Assembly: GCA_017510925.1 (NCBI GenBank)
Contig: JAFWLT010000005.1
Coordinates: forward strand, 1 to 64,000
Source: Candidatus Saccharimonadota bacterium
GTDB taxonomy: Bacteria > Patescibacteriota > Saccharimonadia > Saccharimonadales > Saccharimonadaceae
Reading direction: 5' to 3'
Length of the DNA stretch: 64,000 nucleotides
Shown: positions 13,796-40,632 of the stretch, one piece after another
Position numbering within the stretch: the first letter of the stretch is position 1
How the letters are laid out: the number at the start of each line of letters is the position of its first letter
Program-made: the position numbers and the translations under genes
The notes under the pieces: generated by a model
Told to the model about the DNA's origin: nothing
Databases searched by the model: none
The model's input: only the letters and a program-made list of their open reading frames with translations

Positions 13796-13826
13796 AAAAA
13801 TGGCCCCCTTCTGGGGGCCTTTTTTA
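13796..13826 (+). terminator. Terminator after the orphan membrane protein
   Basis: Stem GGCCCCC/GGGGGCC, loop TTCT, then T6. It touches the 3' end of the convergent gene. Confidence 0.93.
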
Positions 13827-14543
13827 TTCTTCTTCATCTTCTTCGCTGCCGTCGATTCCGATCTCCACTTCTGGGTCTTTTTCGCCGGTTTTCATAATAT
13901 GGACGATATTTTTGCCGTCGTTGATAGTGCCACGGATATTCTCTTTGGTAGAAACGGTAAGAACTTCAATGATGCCTGCTACAGTAGTAAGTACGCCCAT
14001 CACAACATACCAGCCCACTTCGAGCCCGTCGGAATTAATAATGAAAAATGGGCCAAGGATTAGCTCAAATACCATTAAAACTAGGCGAAATTCCCATTTA
14101 AGGGTTTTGTTTTGACGCCCCTTATAGACGTTAAAAATATTTAGGACGCCGTTTAAGGTGGTGAAGAAGCCGGCCATAAGATTGAGGGCCTTATCGGTAA
14201 ATTGGTGGTTCGAAAGCAAGAAAACGCCAATTCCAGCGATCGCTGCATAGACCAAACCTTCTATAATTTGGGCAAATAATTCGCGCTTTTTGACCTCATC
14301 TTCGGTGCCTTTGTAGCCGTCATATTCAGATTTGAGATAGCCTAGTTTGCAAGCCGACCAAAGAGTAAGAGCGACGCCGAGGGAAGTAATTAAGATTGGA
14401 AGTGAGTAGACATCATTACCTTTGCCTTGAATAGCGCCGATAAACATCATTACGCCAGATGAGAGCATCATAATTGATGCTACGAGTTTGTTTTTTAAGA
14501 AGATTTTGTAGGCAGAAAGGCCTCGTTTTACCATTTTATCCAT
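13824..14543 (-). CDS. Multi-pass membrane protein, DUF308/HdeD-like
   Basis: 239 residues with about six hydrophobic segments arranged in pairs (residues about 20-38, 48-64, 90-108, 120-138, 150-168, 175-195) and an acidic C-terminal tail ending in DGSEEDEEE. The pattern of short loops and Gly-rich helices resembles DUF308 (HdeD) proteins, but I cannot confirm this by eye. Function unknown. On the minus strand TGCTAAAAT ends 6 nt before the ATG, with no ribosome binding site. Confidence 0.75.
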   Translation of the reverse strand: MDKMVKRGLSAYKIFLKNKLVASIMMLSSGVMMFIGAIQGKGNDVYSLPILITSLGVALTLWSACKLGYLKSEYDGYKGTEDEVKKRELFAQIIEGLVYAAIAGIGVFLLSNHQFTDKALNLMAGFFTTLNGVLNIFNVYKGRQNKTLKWEFRLVLMVFELILGPFFIINSDGLEVGWYVVMGVLTTVAGIIEVLTVSTKENIRGTINDGKNIVHIMKTGEKDPEVEIGIDGSEEDEEE

Positions 14544-14560: not shown

Positions 14561-17500
14561 TTATCTAGCGATACAACGAACTGGCACCGCACTTTTTATA
14601 CCTATCTTGGTCCAGAAACCATTAGTACCCGTTGAGTGGTCTGTTGAGCTGATGTAGGTGGAAACAGCGGTATTATTGGCGGCTGGGACATTGGTCCACC
14701 ATCTAGTGGCTCTTCCGGCTGTTAAGACGAGCGTTGACTCGCCATTAGTACTTGAAACAGATAGTAAATCTCCTGGTACTGCGTAGAATGGCTCTCTAAT
14801 AATTGGCCAGTCTGCACCGTAGGTCCCATTAATATCGTAGTGCCAATCCCAGTAGACTACATTATAATATTCATCTTTGCCGGCGACGGTATTAGTGGTG
14901 TCTTTATAGTATGTGCTGGTCGGAAGTCGCCAGCCTTTAGGGCAGATAGAAGTATCTGGGATGGATGCTTCAGTATGCGTATTCCCATCATATTGGTAAT
15001 AATCGTCATAATTATCGCTGGCGATGGCAGCAAGCCAGTTGTAATAATTGCCAACATGGCCGTGGGTGCCATTTGTCTCAAACGGTTCGCTAGCAAATTT
15101 AGATTCAGCAGAACAATTGTTGATATCTAATAAGTTGCAAGTGGCTGGGTTTCTAGCTGCTCTGCTAGTGCTATCAAAGTAGATATTGCCCGGATCGAAT
15201 GATTGAGGGAGGTTAAGCTCCTGAGCAGCAATGTAGGAATTTTGAGTTGCCATATTATAAGTAGTGGTTGGTGTCCAGTTGGTCTTGACGTCGCTATCTG
15301 TTGGGGTGAGGGTTCGATCAGAATTTAAGTCAAGATCTAGGTTTTGAGTCATCCAGCAATTGCCGTCACGTATTTTGGCAATCCAGTAAAGTTTGTTGTC
15401 TCTTGTGTCGACCATCTGAGTCTGCACGGTATTATTAGAATCGAAACCGACGCTAGCGCAAAGTTCTGGGGTCATATCTTGCATTTTGTAATATTCTTGA
15501 CCATCTATAGTAACCGTATTTAGACCAGCTGTTTCAAAGGCTTCTTCAAAAGTAACCGGGCGCCATTTAGCATAAAGTTCAATTGTATTGTTTTCGCCTT
15601 CTGGTATGGCGATAGTGGCTTGATCTTGAAGAATATTAGTGTCATTATACCATCTGCCCCAACCGAGGAAGACAAACCCTGGGTTCTCAAATTGATTGGC
15701 TGGAAGGGTAAAATCTCTACCACCAGGGACAAATAGAGTTGGCATAATGGCTTCATTTTCGGTACCATGCCAAGAAGTGTTGAATCTGATATGACAGGTA
15801 GGTTTATTGTGAACATCGCTAAGATAGCCAGGATTATTGGTTTTATCGATATGGGCATAATCTTTTTGGCAATGGTCGCTACTATATGTAGTGCCATTGT
15901 CGCCTACTAGAAGGTTATTATTATTAAACATAGATTGCTCGTCTGTCTCGTTGTACGCATTTACTACAAAATTTTCTGATACATAGATTCCGGTAAGATG
16001 AGCGTCTCCTTCAGCTTCCCAGAACATACGATCCATATTGGTTACCTTACTGGTATCAAAAGTGCTAAGGTCTAGAATTTCTGCTTTGGTATTTTCAAAC
16101 ATGCCACTCATGTCGGTAACATTAGAAGTGCTCCAGTTTTCTGCAGTATGGATATTGAAGTTTTCTATGCCGGTGTTCTTAAATAGGTTGCTCATATCTG
16201 TGACATTAGAAGTGTTCCAGTCACTAAAATCAATCGTTGTTAGATCTGGAGTATTTTCAAACATGCCACTAATATTAGTGGTGCTTTCAGTAACTAGGCT
16301 ACTTGTCCAAATATCTTGAACAGCTGAATCCTTAAACATATTGCCACCGTTTTCTAGATTACCGAATGATGCGCTAAAGTAGGTAAGGTTTTCGCAACCT
16401 TCAAACATACCATAGGCGTTGGTGACACTAGAAAAATCATACATATGCTCGGAAAGGGAATTACCATTAATGTTAGAGCCAGCAAACATATAGGAGGCAT
16501 TTTCTAGGCTGCTAATATCCATACTTTCGTAGTCGTTGTAGCCAATGTATTCTGTAGCAGAGTTTTCAAATGCAGATTCAAAACTGACTACGTTACTTGT
16601 ATCTAGATAATAGAAGTTAGGATATGAAAATGGCATATCTTCAAACATATGGGAGCTGTCGGCATTTAATCTAGGGACAGCTTCACTCCACCAGTAGATA
16701 TTATTATCATCGCGCCAGAGGTAAACTGGGGCGCCGGACTCAGCAATATTATACTTGTTGCTAAAATCTTCAGGGGTTTCCCAATAATTGTCAAAATACA
16801 TTCCTGTATCTGTGCCAACTAGGGTTTTTAGAATGGCGTTAATTTCTGGTCCAGTGATAAGGGTACTTTCTATTCTTTCCCACTCAGCGTAGAGGTAGAT
16901 TTCGTCTTCGTGAGTGAGATTTTTGACTTCAGCTTCGTCGTCGTAGTGGGTGCCAGAACCGTCTGCTTCGGTGTTCCAACCAAGGAATCTGTAACCTTGA
17001 TTGCCGTAGAATTCTCCTTTTGGTAAAGTAAAGGTTTCGTTGGAGTGTGCTTCTAAATAACTTGTGGAATTCATCCCAATGTAAAAATACGGATAAGTCG
17101 ACTCCAAGTCGTAGTAGTTAGGTTCGAAATAAACTGAGTAGTTTTCTTTGCCCCATTCGGCATAGAGGTTGACCGTAGCTCCATCTACGGTGGTGAGATT
17201 TTTGACTTCAGCTTCGTCGTCGTAGTGGGTGCCAGAATAGTCTGACTCGGTATTCCAACCAGTGAATACGAGGTCTTCATTGGTAAAATAGTTAGCTGGC
17301 AGCATTAGGGGAGTATCGTAAGTAGCATTTAAGACTTCGTCTTCGTATGCACCACCGTTGGCGATTAGATTGATATAGTAGGAGATTGGGGTGTAAATCG
17401 GGACGAGCGTCAAATCATCCGTGACAGTAGTAGTTGGATTATAATCGGTACCATCTTGATATGTCCATTTTGAGAAGTTGTGGCCTTCTTTTTCTTCTGG

Positions 17501-18355
17501 ATCCATCATGGTACCACCTGGTTGATTCCAGTCTACTACTTTTTGTTGTACGTTGCCGTCTTCATCGGTGTAAGAAAGGGCAATTTTGTCATATAACTTT
17601 ACCGTTGGTTCTACGGTGATATTAGAAGCAACTATAGTCAGCGCGCGAATGTTGGCGGTCAACGGAATCATCGTGATAAATGCAACTGCAAGACCTAAAC
17701 AAGTGGTGGCGAGCTTCCTTCGCTTTATTTTAACTGCAATAAGGCCAAATATACTAACAAGGCCTGCTAAAATGGCGAACGTAATAGTAAATTGAGTAGC
17801 GCCATCAAGATTTTTTGTATTTTGGCCAGTATCTGGCACGATAGTCGACTCAGGTTCCGTACTGGTGTTTGGCACGATTGTGACATCGTTGGTGGTTTCT
17901 TCGCCCGTGGAGAGATTTTCTAGTATAAAATTAATTGTGGCTGGGGCATTTTGAGTTCTCTGAGATAAATCCGTGACTAGGTTAGTGTAAATAGCCATCA
18001 GAGAGAAATTAAGGCTATCGCCAGGATTTATAGTTGTGTTGGCGTGGTTATCAAATTGGTATTCTACGTATGGGTTGGTGTTTGTTACTTCTATTTGTAA
18101 GAGTTTATAAGGGTTTTGGGTGGGATTTTCTACGGTAAAATTTAGGGTAGCATAGTCATATCTGGCATGGAATTTAATATTTGCATCTACTGTCTCGTCG
18201 TCAAAACTAGTGATTTCTGCCTCAGTAGTTGCAGATTTTTCACCAAGAGTGACGTTAGTAATTTTTAATATATTGCTAGCAGCATTAGCGCTTGCTACGA
18301 AGATAAACGGTAACATTAAAGCAACCACAACGCTTAGAATACCCTGTTTTTTCAT
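14561..18355 (-). CDS. Giant surface protein: internal sorting signal, InlB-type repeats, BspA-like/DUF285 repeats, Fibrobacter-paralog domain
   Basis: 1264 residues. The signal peptide is residues 1-25 (ANA/A). A beta-rich domain (30-160) follows. A complete sortase-type signal comes next: VPDTG (173-177), TM helix (about 188-208) and KIKRRK (209-214). A second hydrophobic helix (215-235) follows at once and looks like another signal sequence. InlB/Listeria-Bacteroides-type repeats (FTGWNTE, FLGWNTEADGSGTHYDDEAEVKNLT, FLGWG) lie at about 325-400, 405-492 and 855-932. BspA-like DUF285 repeats (TSNVTDMSxxF) cover about 565-800. The C-terminus (980-1264) is a Fibrobacter succinogenes major paralogous domain (VDTRDNKLYWIAKI, CWMTQNL, CPKGWRLPT, PVRCIAR). 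It is probably an adhesin. The gene may be a fusion of two surface-protein genes. Confidence 0.88.
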   Translation of the reverse strand: MKKQGILSVVVALMLPFIFVASANAASNILKITNVTLGEKSATTEAEITSFDDETVDANIKFHARYDYATLNFTVENPTQNPYKLLQIEVTNTNPYVEYQFDNHANTTINPGDSLNFSLMAIYTNLVTDLSQRTQNAPATINFILENLSTGEETTNDVTIVPNTSTEPESTIVPDTGQNTKNLDGATQFTITFAILAGLVSIFGLIAVKIKRRKLATTCLGLAVAFITMIPLTANIRALTIVASNITVEPTVKLYDKIALSYTDEDGNVQQKVVDWNQPGGTMMDPEEKEGHNFSKWTYQDGTDYNPTTTVTDDLTLVPIYTPISYYINLIANGGAYEDEVLNATYDTPLMLPANYFTNEDLVFTGWNTESDYSGTHYDDEAEVKNLTTVDGATVNLYAEWGKENYSVYFEPNYYDLESTYPYFYIGMNSTSYLEAHSNETFTLPKGEFYGNQGYRFLGWNTEADGSGTHYDDEAEVKNLTHEDEIYLYAEWERIESTLITGPEINAILKTLVGTDTGMYFDNYWETPEDFSNKYNIAESGAPVYLWRDDNNIYWWSEAVPRLNADSSHMFEDMPFSYPNFYYLDTSNVVSFESAFENSATEYIGYNDYESMDISSLENASYMFAGSNINGNSLSEHMYDFSSVTNAYGMFEGCENLTYFSASFGNLENGGNMFKDSAVQDIWTSSLVTESTTNISGMFENTPDLTTIDFSDWNTSNVTDMSNLFKNTGIENFNIHTAENWSTSNVTDMSGMFENTKAEILDLSTFDTSKVTNMDRMFWEAEGDAHLTGIYVSENFVVNAYNETDEQSMFNNNNLLVGDNGTTYSSDHCQKDYAHIDKTNNPGYLSDVHNKPTCHIRFNTSWHGTENEAIMPTLFVPGGRDFTLPANQFENPGFVFLGWGRWYNDTNILQDQATIAIPEGENNTIELYAKWRPVTFEEAFETAGLNTVTIDGQEYYKMQDMTPELCASVGFDSNNTVQTQMVDTRDNKLYWIAKIRDGNCWMTQNLDLDLNSDRTLTPTDSDVKTNWTPTTTYNMATQNSYIAAQELNLPQSFDPGNIYFDSTSRAARNPATCNLLDINNCSAESKFASEPFETNGTHGHVGNYYNWLAAIASDNYDDYYQYDGNTHTEASIPDTSICPKGWRLPTSTYYKDTTNTVAGKDEYYNVVYWDWHYDINGTYGADWPIIREPFYAVPGDLLSVSSTNGESTLVLTAGRATRWWTNVPAANNTAVSTYISSTDHSTGTNGFWTKIGIKSAVPVRCIAR
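16914..16958 (-). repeat. 45-bp direct repeat, copy 1
   Basis: Identical to 17193-17237. It encodes 15 residues of consecutive InlB-type repeats (GTHYDDEAEVKNLT). The identity at DNA level points to recent duplication. Confidence 0.85.
17193..17237 (-). repeat. 45-bp direct repeat, copy 2
   Basis: Second copy of the repeat at 16914-16958, 279 bp away, so 93 codons per repeat unit. Confidence 0.85.
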
Positions 18356-18378: not shown

Positions 18379-18387
18379 ATTTTAGCA
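18379..18387 (-). promoter_or_regulatory. Promoter of the giant surface protein gene
   Basis: Minus-strand TGCTAAAAT, 23 nt before the ATG; AAGGG in the leader. Confidence 0.65.
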
Positions 18388-18440
18388 TAAATGGAATAGG
18401 AATGACAAGAAAAATAGCAAACAAATGTTTGCTACTTTTC

Positions 18441-18517: not shown

Positions 18518-18602
18518 TGGTGCTGGAAGTAGGACTCGAACCTACGAAGGCCGAAGCCGAGAGATTTACAGTCTCTTGTCATTGCCACTAGACGATTCCA
18601 GC
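18518..18602 (-). tRNA. tRNA-Tyr (anticodon GTA)
   Basis: 85-nt class II tRNA. Acceptor GCTGGAA/TTCCAGC, anticodon stem AGAGA/TCTCT around CTGTAAA (GTA), long variable arm, T arm GTAGG/CCTAC, encoded CCA. It lies 8 nt after tRNA-Thr in one transcript. Confidence 0.94.
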
Positions 18603-18610
18603 ACTTTTAA

Positions 18611-18686
18611 TGGAGCCGCCAACCAGGTTTGAACTGGTGACCTCATCCTTACCATGGATGCGCTCTACCAACTGAGCTATAGCGGC
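18611..18686 (-). tRNA. tRNA-Thr (anticodon GGT)
   Basis: Acceptor GCCGCTA/TGGCGGC with discriminator U, anticodon stem CATCC/GGATG around ATGGTAA (GGT), encoded CCA. It is the first gene of the tRNA-Thr/tRNA-Tyr unit. Confidence 0.94.
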
Positions 18687-21385: not shown

Positions 21386-22510
21386 ATGGATATAATTTTA
21401 GGTGTGATGGGGGTTATAATAATAGTTCTTTTGGCCTTGATTTTGATTTTGTCGCTCAGGAAAAAACCAGAGAATCAAAGCACAGATTATAAAAAAATGG
21501 AAGAACGTTTGATTCGGATGGAGGGAGAGATTTCTAAACTTAATCCAGAAATAGATCGTAACTTTCGTGAAAATCGTAAAGAAATTGCCGAGAATTTAGA
21601 GAGGCTTCAGACCGGTAACGAGAAAAAGCTCGAAGAAATGCGTGAAACCGTAGATGAAAAACTTAAAGCCTCAGTAGAAAAAAGATTCAATGAGAGTTTT
21701 AAGTCTATTTCTACTCAGCTAACGCAGGTTTACCAAGGCCTCGGCGAGATGAGAAGTATGGCAAATGAAGTTGGTGACCTCAAAAAAGTGATGGAGGGCG
21801 TAAAGACGCGTGGTATTTATGGCGAAGTACAACTCGGGGCAATTATTGAAGATATGTTAAATAAAACCCAGTATGAAGAAAATGTAATTACTAAACCAGG
21901 CTCTAACGATAGGGTAGAATTTGCTGTAAAAATGCCAGGCAAAGAAAACAATGTATTTCTTCCGATTGATTCTAAATTCCCAGTAGAAAATTATTCTAGA
22001 TTGATTGCTGCTTATGATGAGGGAAATAAAACGGCAATTGCTACCTATCAAAAGGCCTTAGCTACTGATGTAAAAGAGCAAGCCAAAAAGATTTCTACTA
22101 AATATTTGGAACCACCAATGACTACAGAATTTGGGGTGATGTTTGTGCCTACAGAATCTTTGTATGCCGAGATTATTAGAATTCCAGGCTTGTCTGAGGA
22201 AATTCGTAAGAAATATAATGTGACGATCGCTTCGCCTTCTACGCTTCCAGTTATGCTAAATGGTCTTGTGATGGGTTTTAGAACGCTTGCTATAGAGAAA
22301 CGCTCGGCTGATGTATGGCAGACTTTGGGTGCAGTAAAAACCCAGTTTGGTAAATTTGGTGACCTACTAGAAGGTGTGCAGAAAAAACTTCAAGAATCTG
22401 CCAATAAGATTGAATCGGCTAGAACCACTTCTCGTCAAATAGAGAAGAAGCTAAAAGACGTGGAAGAATTACCAGAAGCTGATTCTGTAAAATTAATTGG
22501 TGAAGTCTAG
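21386..22510 (+). CDS. rmuC: RmuC-family DNA recombination protein
   Basis: 374 residues. One N-terminal TM helix (about 3-24), a coiled coil (about 35-125, rich in E/K/R), then the RmuC domain (GVKTRGIYGEVQLGAIIEDML, FLPIDSKFPVENYSRL, MFVPTESLYAEI). RmuC proteins limit inversions between short inverted repeats and have a predicted nuclease-like fold. The start is the ATG at 21386; extending upstream would translate the promoter. Its TAG overlaps the lepB TAG on the other strand in a shared CTAG. Confidence 0.92.
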   Translation: MDIILGVMGVIIIVLLALILILSLRKKPENQSTDYKKMEERLIRMEGEISKLNPEIDRNFRENRKEIAENLERLQTGNEKKLEEMRETVDEKLKASVEKRFNESFKSISTQLTQVYQGLGEMRSMANEVGDLKKVMEGVKTRGIYGEVQLGAIIEDMLNKTQYEENVITKPGSNDRVEFAVKMPGKENNVFLPIDSKFPVENYSRLIAAYDEGNKTAIATYQKALATDVKEQAKKISTKYLEPPMTTEFGVMFVPTESLYAEIIRIPGLSEEIRKKYNVTIASPSTLPVMLNGLVMGFRTLAIEKRSADVWQTLGAVKTQFGKFGDLLEGVQKKLQESANKIESARTTSRQIEKKLKDVEELPEADSVKLIGEV

Positions 22511-23190
22511 AACGTACGCATTGAATCAAATGGGAATAGACGGAAGATAACTGGGCCGATGATACGACAATAAGGAATAGTACCAAGACCGTTTCTAGAA
22601 TCCCAAGAGCTGGTACCTTCACGGTTGTCTCCAGAAACAAAGAGTTCGCCTTCTGGGACGATAGTATCTACTTCGCCAGAAGTATATTCTTTTGGACCAT
22701 CGGTAGCAGAAACGCGCCATTTGGTATCATATACAAAGCCTTCTGGATGCTCGTCATTATAAATAGTCATTACGCCATCTTTAACTACTACGCGTTCGCC
22801 AGGGAAGGCAATAGCGCGCTTAATAATAAATTGATCAGATACATTGTTTGGTACAGTACAAGTCATAGGGTTTTCAATACCTTGAGCCTTATATTCTCTC
22901 AATTTTTGCTCGTCTTCGTTCATAAATACTACGATTTGGCCTCTTTCTGGGACGTATTCTTGCCCTAAGAAATGAGCCCAAGATACAGCAGCGCGATTTA
23001 CCACCACGCGATCGTCATTCTTTAAGGTATTTTCCATACTAGTACCCACCACATTATAAGAACGGTATATATAGGTATTTAAAAACATTGTACAGAGAAC
23101 GATAGCAATTACAAACCCAGCTAAGCTCAAGATATCCTTAGCTACAGGATGTTTTTCAAAAAATTTCGGATTCATAATTTTGATGTTCAT
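22507..23190 (-). CDS. lepB: Signal peptidase I
   Basis: 227 residues with one N-terminal TM helix (about 19-42). Catalytic Ser51 is in GTSMENTL and Lys124 in FIIKRAIAFPGERV; the C-terminal SGDNREGTSSWDSRNGLG box is complete. It removes signal peptides from secreted proteins such as the large surface proteins in this window. The -10 (minus-strand TGCTATAAT, 23199-23207) ends 8 nt before the ATG with no ribosome binding site. Confidence 0.95.
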   Translation of the reverse strand: MNIKIMNPKFFEKHPVAKDILSLAGFVIAIVLCTMFLNTYIYRSYNVVGTSMENTLKNDDRVVVNRAAVSWAHFLGQEYVPERGQIVVFMNEDEQKLREYKAQGIENPMTCTVPNNVSDQFIIKRAIAFPGERVVVKDGVMTIYNDEHPEGFVYDTKWRVSATDGPKEYTSGEVDTIVPEGELFVSGDNREGTSSWDSRNGLGTIPYCRIIGPVIFRLFPFDSMRTF

Positions 23191-40140: not shown

Positions 40141-40632
40141 GTGGAGTTAAAGAAAAGGTTCTCCTTTAGGAGAGTGTTTACTATATTATATATAGTAGCG
40201 TTTTTTGCATATCTTGCAGTTGGTCTAGTTCCAGCTGACGGTATTGCATACACAATCGATGGTGGGTTGGTCATTCCTAGTATCGATTTAACTTCTGGCG
40301 TAACTAAGCTAGAACTAAAAGACCACAAACTAAACACACCTGATTCAATTGTAGGAAGCTACAGCCAGAGTCGCAACAAGACATTTCTAGTTGGGCACTC
40401 TACTACAGTTTTCAAAGATCTTAATCAGGCTAAGGTGAATGACACTATTGTGTATAACAACACAGAGTACAAGATCACCTCTATGGAAGTATTTAGAAAG
40501 TCCGACATCGATATGAAGGATCTTCTAAAGGCCGAAAAAGAAGATACGCTAGTTCTAATGACTTGCGCAGGTGAGCCAATCGACGAAACCGACGCTACTC
40601 ATAGACTAATCGTAACTGCTGTAAAAAACTAA
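40141..40632 (+). CDS. Small sortase
   Basis: 163 residues with a GTG start after AAGGAGGAAAA. TM anchor at about 12-30. Triad: His86 in FLVGHSTTVF, Cys142 in LVLMTCAGEP, Arg155 in THRLIVTAV. It is shorter and closer to the standard sortase core than the enzyme at 7741, so two different sortases exist, perhaps for two signals. It lies convergent to a GH97 gene and has no obvious substrate gene beside it. Confidence 0.9.
   Translation: MELKKRFSFRRVFTILYIVAFFAYLAVGLVPADGIAYTIDGGLVIPSIDLTSGVTKLELKDHKLNTPDSIVGSYSQSRNKTFLVGHSTTVFKDLNQAKVNDTIVYNNTEYKITSMEVFRKSDIDMKDLLKAEKEDTLVLMTCAGEPIDETDATHRLIVTAVKN

Follow-up and report, generated by a model that had tools for sequence, protein, structure and literature searches.

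An internal sortase-type sorting signal followed by a second signal-peptide-like helix in surface proteins of Saccharibacteria and Bacilli

Sorting signals recognized by sortases are searched for, and understood, as the C-terminal endings of surface proteins. The FbcH protein of Bradyrhizobium is a cytochrome b/c1 polyprotein that is processed by signal peptidase. In Bacillus subtilis, TasA and TapA come together by donor-strand assembly, a form of strand complementation (PMC9674648).

The 1264-aa protein described here is encoded in a 64,000-nucleotide stretch of DNA (the window) from a Saccharibacterium of rumen type with a genome of 0.66 Mb. Its parts follow in the order signal peptide, β-sandwich domain (N-domain), VPDTG, helix 1, KIKRRK, helix 2 and a long series of surface domains (passenger). 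Several features typical of classical sortase substrates are present, namely an N-terminal signal peptide, an LPXTG-like motif with a helix and basic residues, and a sortase in the genome. Yet the signal is not at the C-terminus, and more than 1000 residues follow it. The initial annotation had noted both the complete sortase signal in the middle of the protein, with a second signal-like helix behind it, and the long continuation of the frame. Both observations hold, as the frame stays open from the module (signal peptide to helix 2 and the start of the passenger) through to 14561 and the arrangement recurs in frame in 77 homologs. The feature had been placed at 17651–17839; it does start with VPDTG, but it runs to 17642 because helix 2 ends in TANIRA at residue 238. 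Coordinates are collected in Table 1.

Table 1. Features of the surface-protein gene, its neighbors and the candidate processing enzymes in the window.
Feature	Position	Strand	Basis or remark
Surface-protein ORF	14561–18355	(-)	1264 aa, ATG start
Signal peptide 1, aa 1–25	18281–18355	(-)	Sequence; predicted cut after Ala25
N-domain, aa 26–150 (~125 aa), Ig-like β-sandwich	17906–18280	(-)	AlphaFold2, pLDDT 92–98 over aa 31–150
Sortase motif VPDTG, aa 173–177	17825–17839	(-)	Predicted cut between T176 and G177
Helix 1, aa 184–210, membrane helix of the sorting signal	17726–17806	(-)	AlphaFold2; hydropathy
KIKRRK loop, aa 209–214, predicted cytoplasmic	17714–17731	(-)	Net charge
Helix 2, aa 215–238, signal-peptide-like, ends TANIRA	17642–17713	(-)	Predicted signal peptidase cut after Ala238
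Passenger, aa 239–1264 (~1026 aa)	14564–17641	(-)	List_Bact/InlB-type repeats, DUF285 (PARCEL) repeats, FISUMP domain
Passenger head strand, aa 241–254, predicted docking strand	17594–17635	(-)	AlphaFold with versus without N-domain
Promoter-like site, TTGTCA-18-TAAAAT, TG before -10	18379–18408	(-)	Consensus match only
DUF308 membrane protein	13824–14543	(-)	17 bp downstream of the 1264-aa ORF
Terminator-like site 3' of the DUF308 gene	13819–13802	(-)	
Type I signal peptidase (S26)	22507–23190	(-)	Candidate processing enzyme
Sortase, 163 aa	40141–40632	(+)	His/Cys/Arg present; PF04203 match 40267–40623; candidate processing enzyme

The start codon is preceded by AAGGGA, and the gene is likely co-transcribed with the DUF308 gene behind it. 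Homologs of the DUF308 protein are also located near module genes in L092 and L158. Directly upstream of the ORF lie tRNA-Tyr and tRNA-Thr genes (18518–18686).

No Pfam or NCBIfam model covers the N-domain or the module, and a fold search with the model of the module returned generic Ig-like folds only. The linker around VPDTG is disordered in the AlphaFold model. A second motif-like copy precedes the sorting motif (VPNTS…VPDTG, residues 161–177, positions 17875–17825), and doubled motifs are seen in several other members as well (among them L075, L077, and L079). No C-terminal anchor was found in the passengers of the window protein and of the family members checked.

Residues 1–265 were used as the query to search for homologs. 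About 30 strong homologs were identified within the genus, nearly all within long open frames, and a profile search added the sister genus and more distant members. In total the module is found in frame in 77 proteins (about 80), spanning two genera of Saccharibacteria and one order of Bacilli, and the sorting signal is internal in all of them. The named relatives are labeled ‘Candidatus Saccharibacteria,’ with the best match coming from sheep omasum. A Bacilli metagenome-assembled genome from buffalo reticulum carries the module as well (L159); it was reached by a scan of named genomes, there are three matches in that genome, and further genomes of its order also carry it. The Bacilli label of L159 is credible because the SecA encoded on its contig scores best against the solved chains 1tf5/1m6n (751 bits at the top, versus 566 for 3jux/3din), which we take to be SecA of B. 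subtilis and of Thermotoga, respectively. Across 333 Patescibacteria genomes from the whole phylum the full module was absent outside these groups, with weak partial matches only, and it was not found in a sample of Bacilli outside the order of L159. A contig scan with the whole 1264-aa protein as query gave no match.

The passengers differ between members. In L143–L147 the module is joined to a passenger with a metallo-β-lactamase-fold domain (874–3081 in L143; PF00753, E 4e-6 in L143), which by its sequence would be a displayed enzyme and not an adhesin. An in-frame TAA lies within the N-domain of L091 (G131:C10:147405-148109), being either a decayed copy or a sequence error. L029 and L031 are ORFs that start within an N-domain-like stretch and have an internal VPNTG or IPDTG and two helices, with a C-terminal helix in addition in L031; they are possibly truncated or frameshifted relatives.

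The N-domain also has relatives of its own in Bacilli, mostly secreted proteins of ~170 aa without a sorting signal. Three secreted Bacilli proteins of ~165–175 aa that match the N-domain (L220, L222, and L224) look TasA/CalY-like. The N-domain may be related to TasA/CalY-like matrix proteins. The TasA/CalY family model (PF12389) had no match in 30 members and a sub-threshold match in one N-domain-only Bacilli relative.

The 77 members were aligned and conservation was counted in the 59 that are below 55% identity. The most conserved columns are P174 and T176 (58 of 59 each), Y123 and A238 (57 each), and A25 and N77 (53 each), so that four of the top six fall in the sorting motif or at position -1 of either signal peptide. 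The initial annotation had staked its reading on conservation of VPDTG among homologs, and P-x-T is indeed retained in 75/77 members, within a stretch that is otherwise variable. In the sister genus and in Bacilli, the fifth motif residue frequently differs from Gly. The sorting motif is under clear constraint.

The loop between the helices has a net charge of +2 to +8 and is positive in every one of the 77 members. The end of helix 2 follows the signal peptidase rule in 72/77, where position -3 is V, A, T, I, S, or L and position -1 is A. Of the 59 members, 40 have a strict [AV]-x-A closing helix 2, compared to 14/59 for the end of helix 1 and 78/454 for ordinary helices in polytopic proteins of this genome. 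Helix 2 looks like a cleavable signal peptide rather than a permanent anchor because the Ala at -1 is near-invariant. Alternatively, the sortase might anchor the N-domain while helix 2 stays uncut and holds the passenger as a membrane protein. The topology would fit, helix 2 has the length to span the membrane, and the lack of any other detected anchor would be accounted for. Nevertheless, we consider this unlikely, as the near-invariant Ala at -1 and the small residue at -3 would be left without a role, and close pairs of members differ more in the helix hairpin than in the head strand that follows it.

That head strand could offer another way of holding the passenger. Residues 241–254 form a strand in the model of the module, which includes the N-domain (pLDDT block means 95 and 88), and the same residues are coil (pLDDT 74–80) when the passenger is modeled alone from residue 238, where its own fold begins at about residue 258. 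A DSSP strand requires a hydrogen-bonded partner. The only other strands in the module model are those of the N-domain, and docking by strand complementation on the N-domain is therefore suggested. This rests on AlphaFold confidence and DSSP for one sequence, and would fit an uncut precursor equally well. Hydrophobic residues occupy columns 246, 248, 252, and 254 in 98, 100, 97, and 93% of the members, respectively, with mostly polar positions between them, and the pattern is kept although the passengers differ.

The case for docking leans on this column conservation because the amphipathic strand score differs weakly between module heads and the heads of module-less proteins (p 0.03). Co-variation of head and N-domain is also weak, with a partial rank correlation of 0.30 versus 0.14 with the passenger, from pairs that are not independent. 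An exchange of strands between the heads of N-domain and passenger was considered as well and rejected, since the head profiles are not specially alike. Judging from the models, docking of the passenger on the N-domain through its head strand is somewhat more probable than not, and it is more likely that the passenger is held in this way than by helix 2.

The internal motif tracks the C-terminal sorting signals of each lineage. The three ordinary C-terminal signals of this genome are VPDTG, VPDTG, and VPNTN, and the internal motifs of the genus are VPDTG (as in the window protein) or VPNTG. In the sister genus the internal motifs are xPNTGD or NPSTWDN-like (NPxTxD), with TPNTGD and NPHTEDN among the C-terminal ones, and in the Bacilli members the internal motif is NPxTxDN. 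Of the two sortases that the initial annotation had counted in the window, a PF04203 search, in which the other small ORFs were scanned too, finds one; the S26 enzyme in the window is a signal peptidase. The whole genome encodes three sortases, all with the His, Cys, and Arg residues. A sortase was found in 172 of 174 genomes of the genus and in all 11 genomes of the sister genus that were examined. None was found in G143 (79% complete), which bears the module L101.

A protein that mostly stays uncut would be a two-helix membrane protein with both N-domain and passenger outside and docked, the motif being a relic or rarely used. The docking model would suit such a chain, and one member, L204, has lost the sorting motif with the rest of the module kept. 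We regard this as improbable, more so than an uncut helix 2 alone, as the P and the T of the motif each persist in 58 of the 59 members across two phyla and as the motif follows the sorting signals of each lineage. The internal signal is very probably used by sortase, and a signal peptidase cut after Ala238 is likely.

Additional, independent translation of the passenger, initiated internally ahead of helix 2, is highly improbable. Some ATG, GTG, or TTG is found near the loop in 34/77 members, but start codons are absent from this region in the other 43, a Shine-Dalgarno-like site is present in 0/77, and in the window gene the loop offers no canonical start upstream of helix 2. The in-frame fusion of two genes that the initial annotation had raised, be it a sequencing or assembly error, a missed stop or a recent private event, can practically be dismissed: both halves appear complete and the genus does have proteins of passenger type whose signal peptide is simple, but the frame is open in 77 members from many genomes, the search for the halves as separate genes found no N-half ending in a sorting signal beside a separate passenger in the searched genomes, and the N-domain-only relatives lack such a signal. 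The homologs refute fusion, assembly error, or a missed stop as a general explanation, and the lack of any internal start backed by a Shine-Dalgarno site among the members leads us to reject artefact, missed stop, and re-initiation. The sortase-made polyprotein that the initial annotation had offered instead is thus strongly favored, although its permanent anchoring by helix 2 gives way to strand docking as the likelier arrangement.

We lean towards the view that sortase anchors the N-domain, that signal peptidase frees the passenger, and that the new N-terminus of the passenger docks on the N-domain. We infer the cleavages, wall attachment, topology, docking, and role in attachment to combine as follows. 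One ORF would encode both parts of a surface ‘socket and plug’ in one polyprotein, with signal peptide 1 exporting the chain. As read from the sequence, the N-domain would be outside, helix 1 would cross in, KIKRRK would be cytoplasmic and helix 2 would cross out, and the passenger would therefore be exported too. Sortase would cut VPDT|G and link an N-domain of ~150 aa to the wall, signal peptidase I would cut after Ala238 and free the passenger of ~1026 aa, and the hairpin left between the two cuts would be discarded. What would keep the passenger on the cell is its new N-terminal strand (about residues 241–254), which would add to the β-sheet of the N-domain in a donor-strand-like manner.

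The family has a conserved surface-protein architecture in which known signals stand in a new order, for which we found no earlier description. Surface proteins with a conserved internal sorting signal and a second signal peptide behind it would be displayed in a different way. The balance is even on whether this is a display system common to Saccharibacteria and Bacilli, in which a wall-bound receptor and an interchangeable passenger are made from one gene, cut apart by a sortase and a signal peptidase, and reunited non-covalently by strand complementation. It could equally go either way whether adhesin repeats, FISUMP, and, in one clade, a metallo-β-lactamase-fold enzyme are its interchangeable passengers. 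If true, one gene would yield wall-bound socket and plug at 1:1, with a standard adaptor for swapping unrelated passengers. Saccharibacteria live on other bacteria, and the passengers of the module are candidate contact proteins for their attachment. The module also offers a docking pair that is ready for testing.

Each of the three elements, sortase, signal peptidase, and strand docking, is known, but their combination as a two-product display system was not found described, nor were internal sorting signals or sortase polyproteins, in literature covered mostly without subscription papers. The module shares the signal peptide, P-x-T motif, membrane helix, basic residues, and genomic sortase with LPXTG-type wall-anchored proteins. 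In contrast to these, its signal is internal and is followed by hundreds to more than 2000 residues beginning with another signal peptide, and the small N-domain alone would be anchored. As in FbcH, an internal signal peptide with a -3/-1 site lies within one ORF, and two mature proteins are predicted; FbcH, however, has no sortase cut and its products are respiratory subunits. The predicted docking would resemble TasA/TapA, in which one secreted protein contributes its N-terminal strand to complete the β-sandwich of another (PMC9674648), but that system is encoded by separate genes, forms a filament, and involves no sortase.
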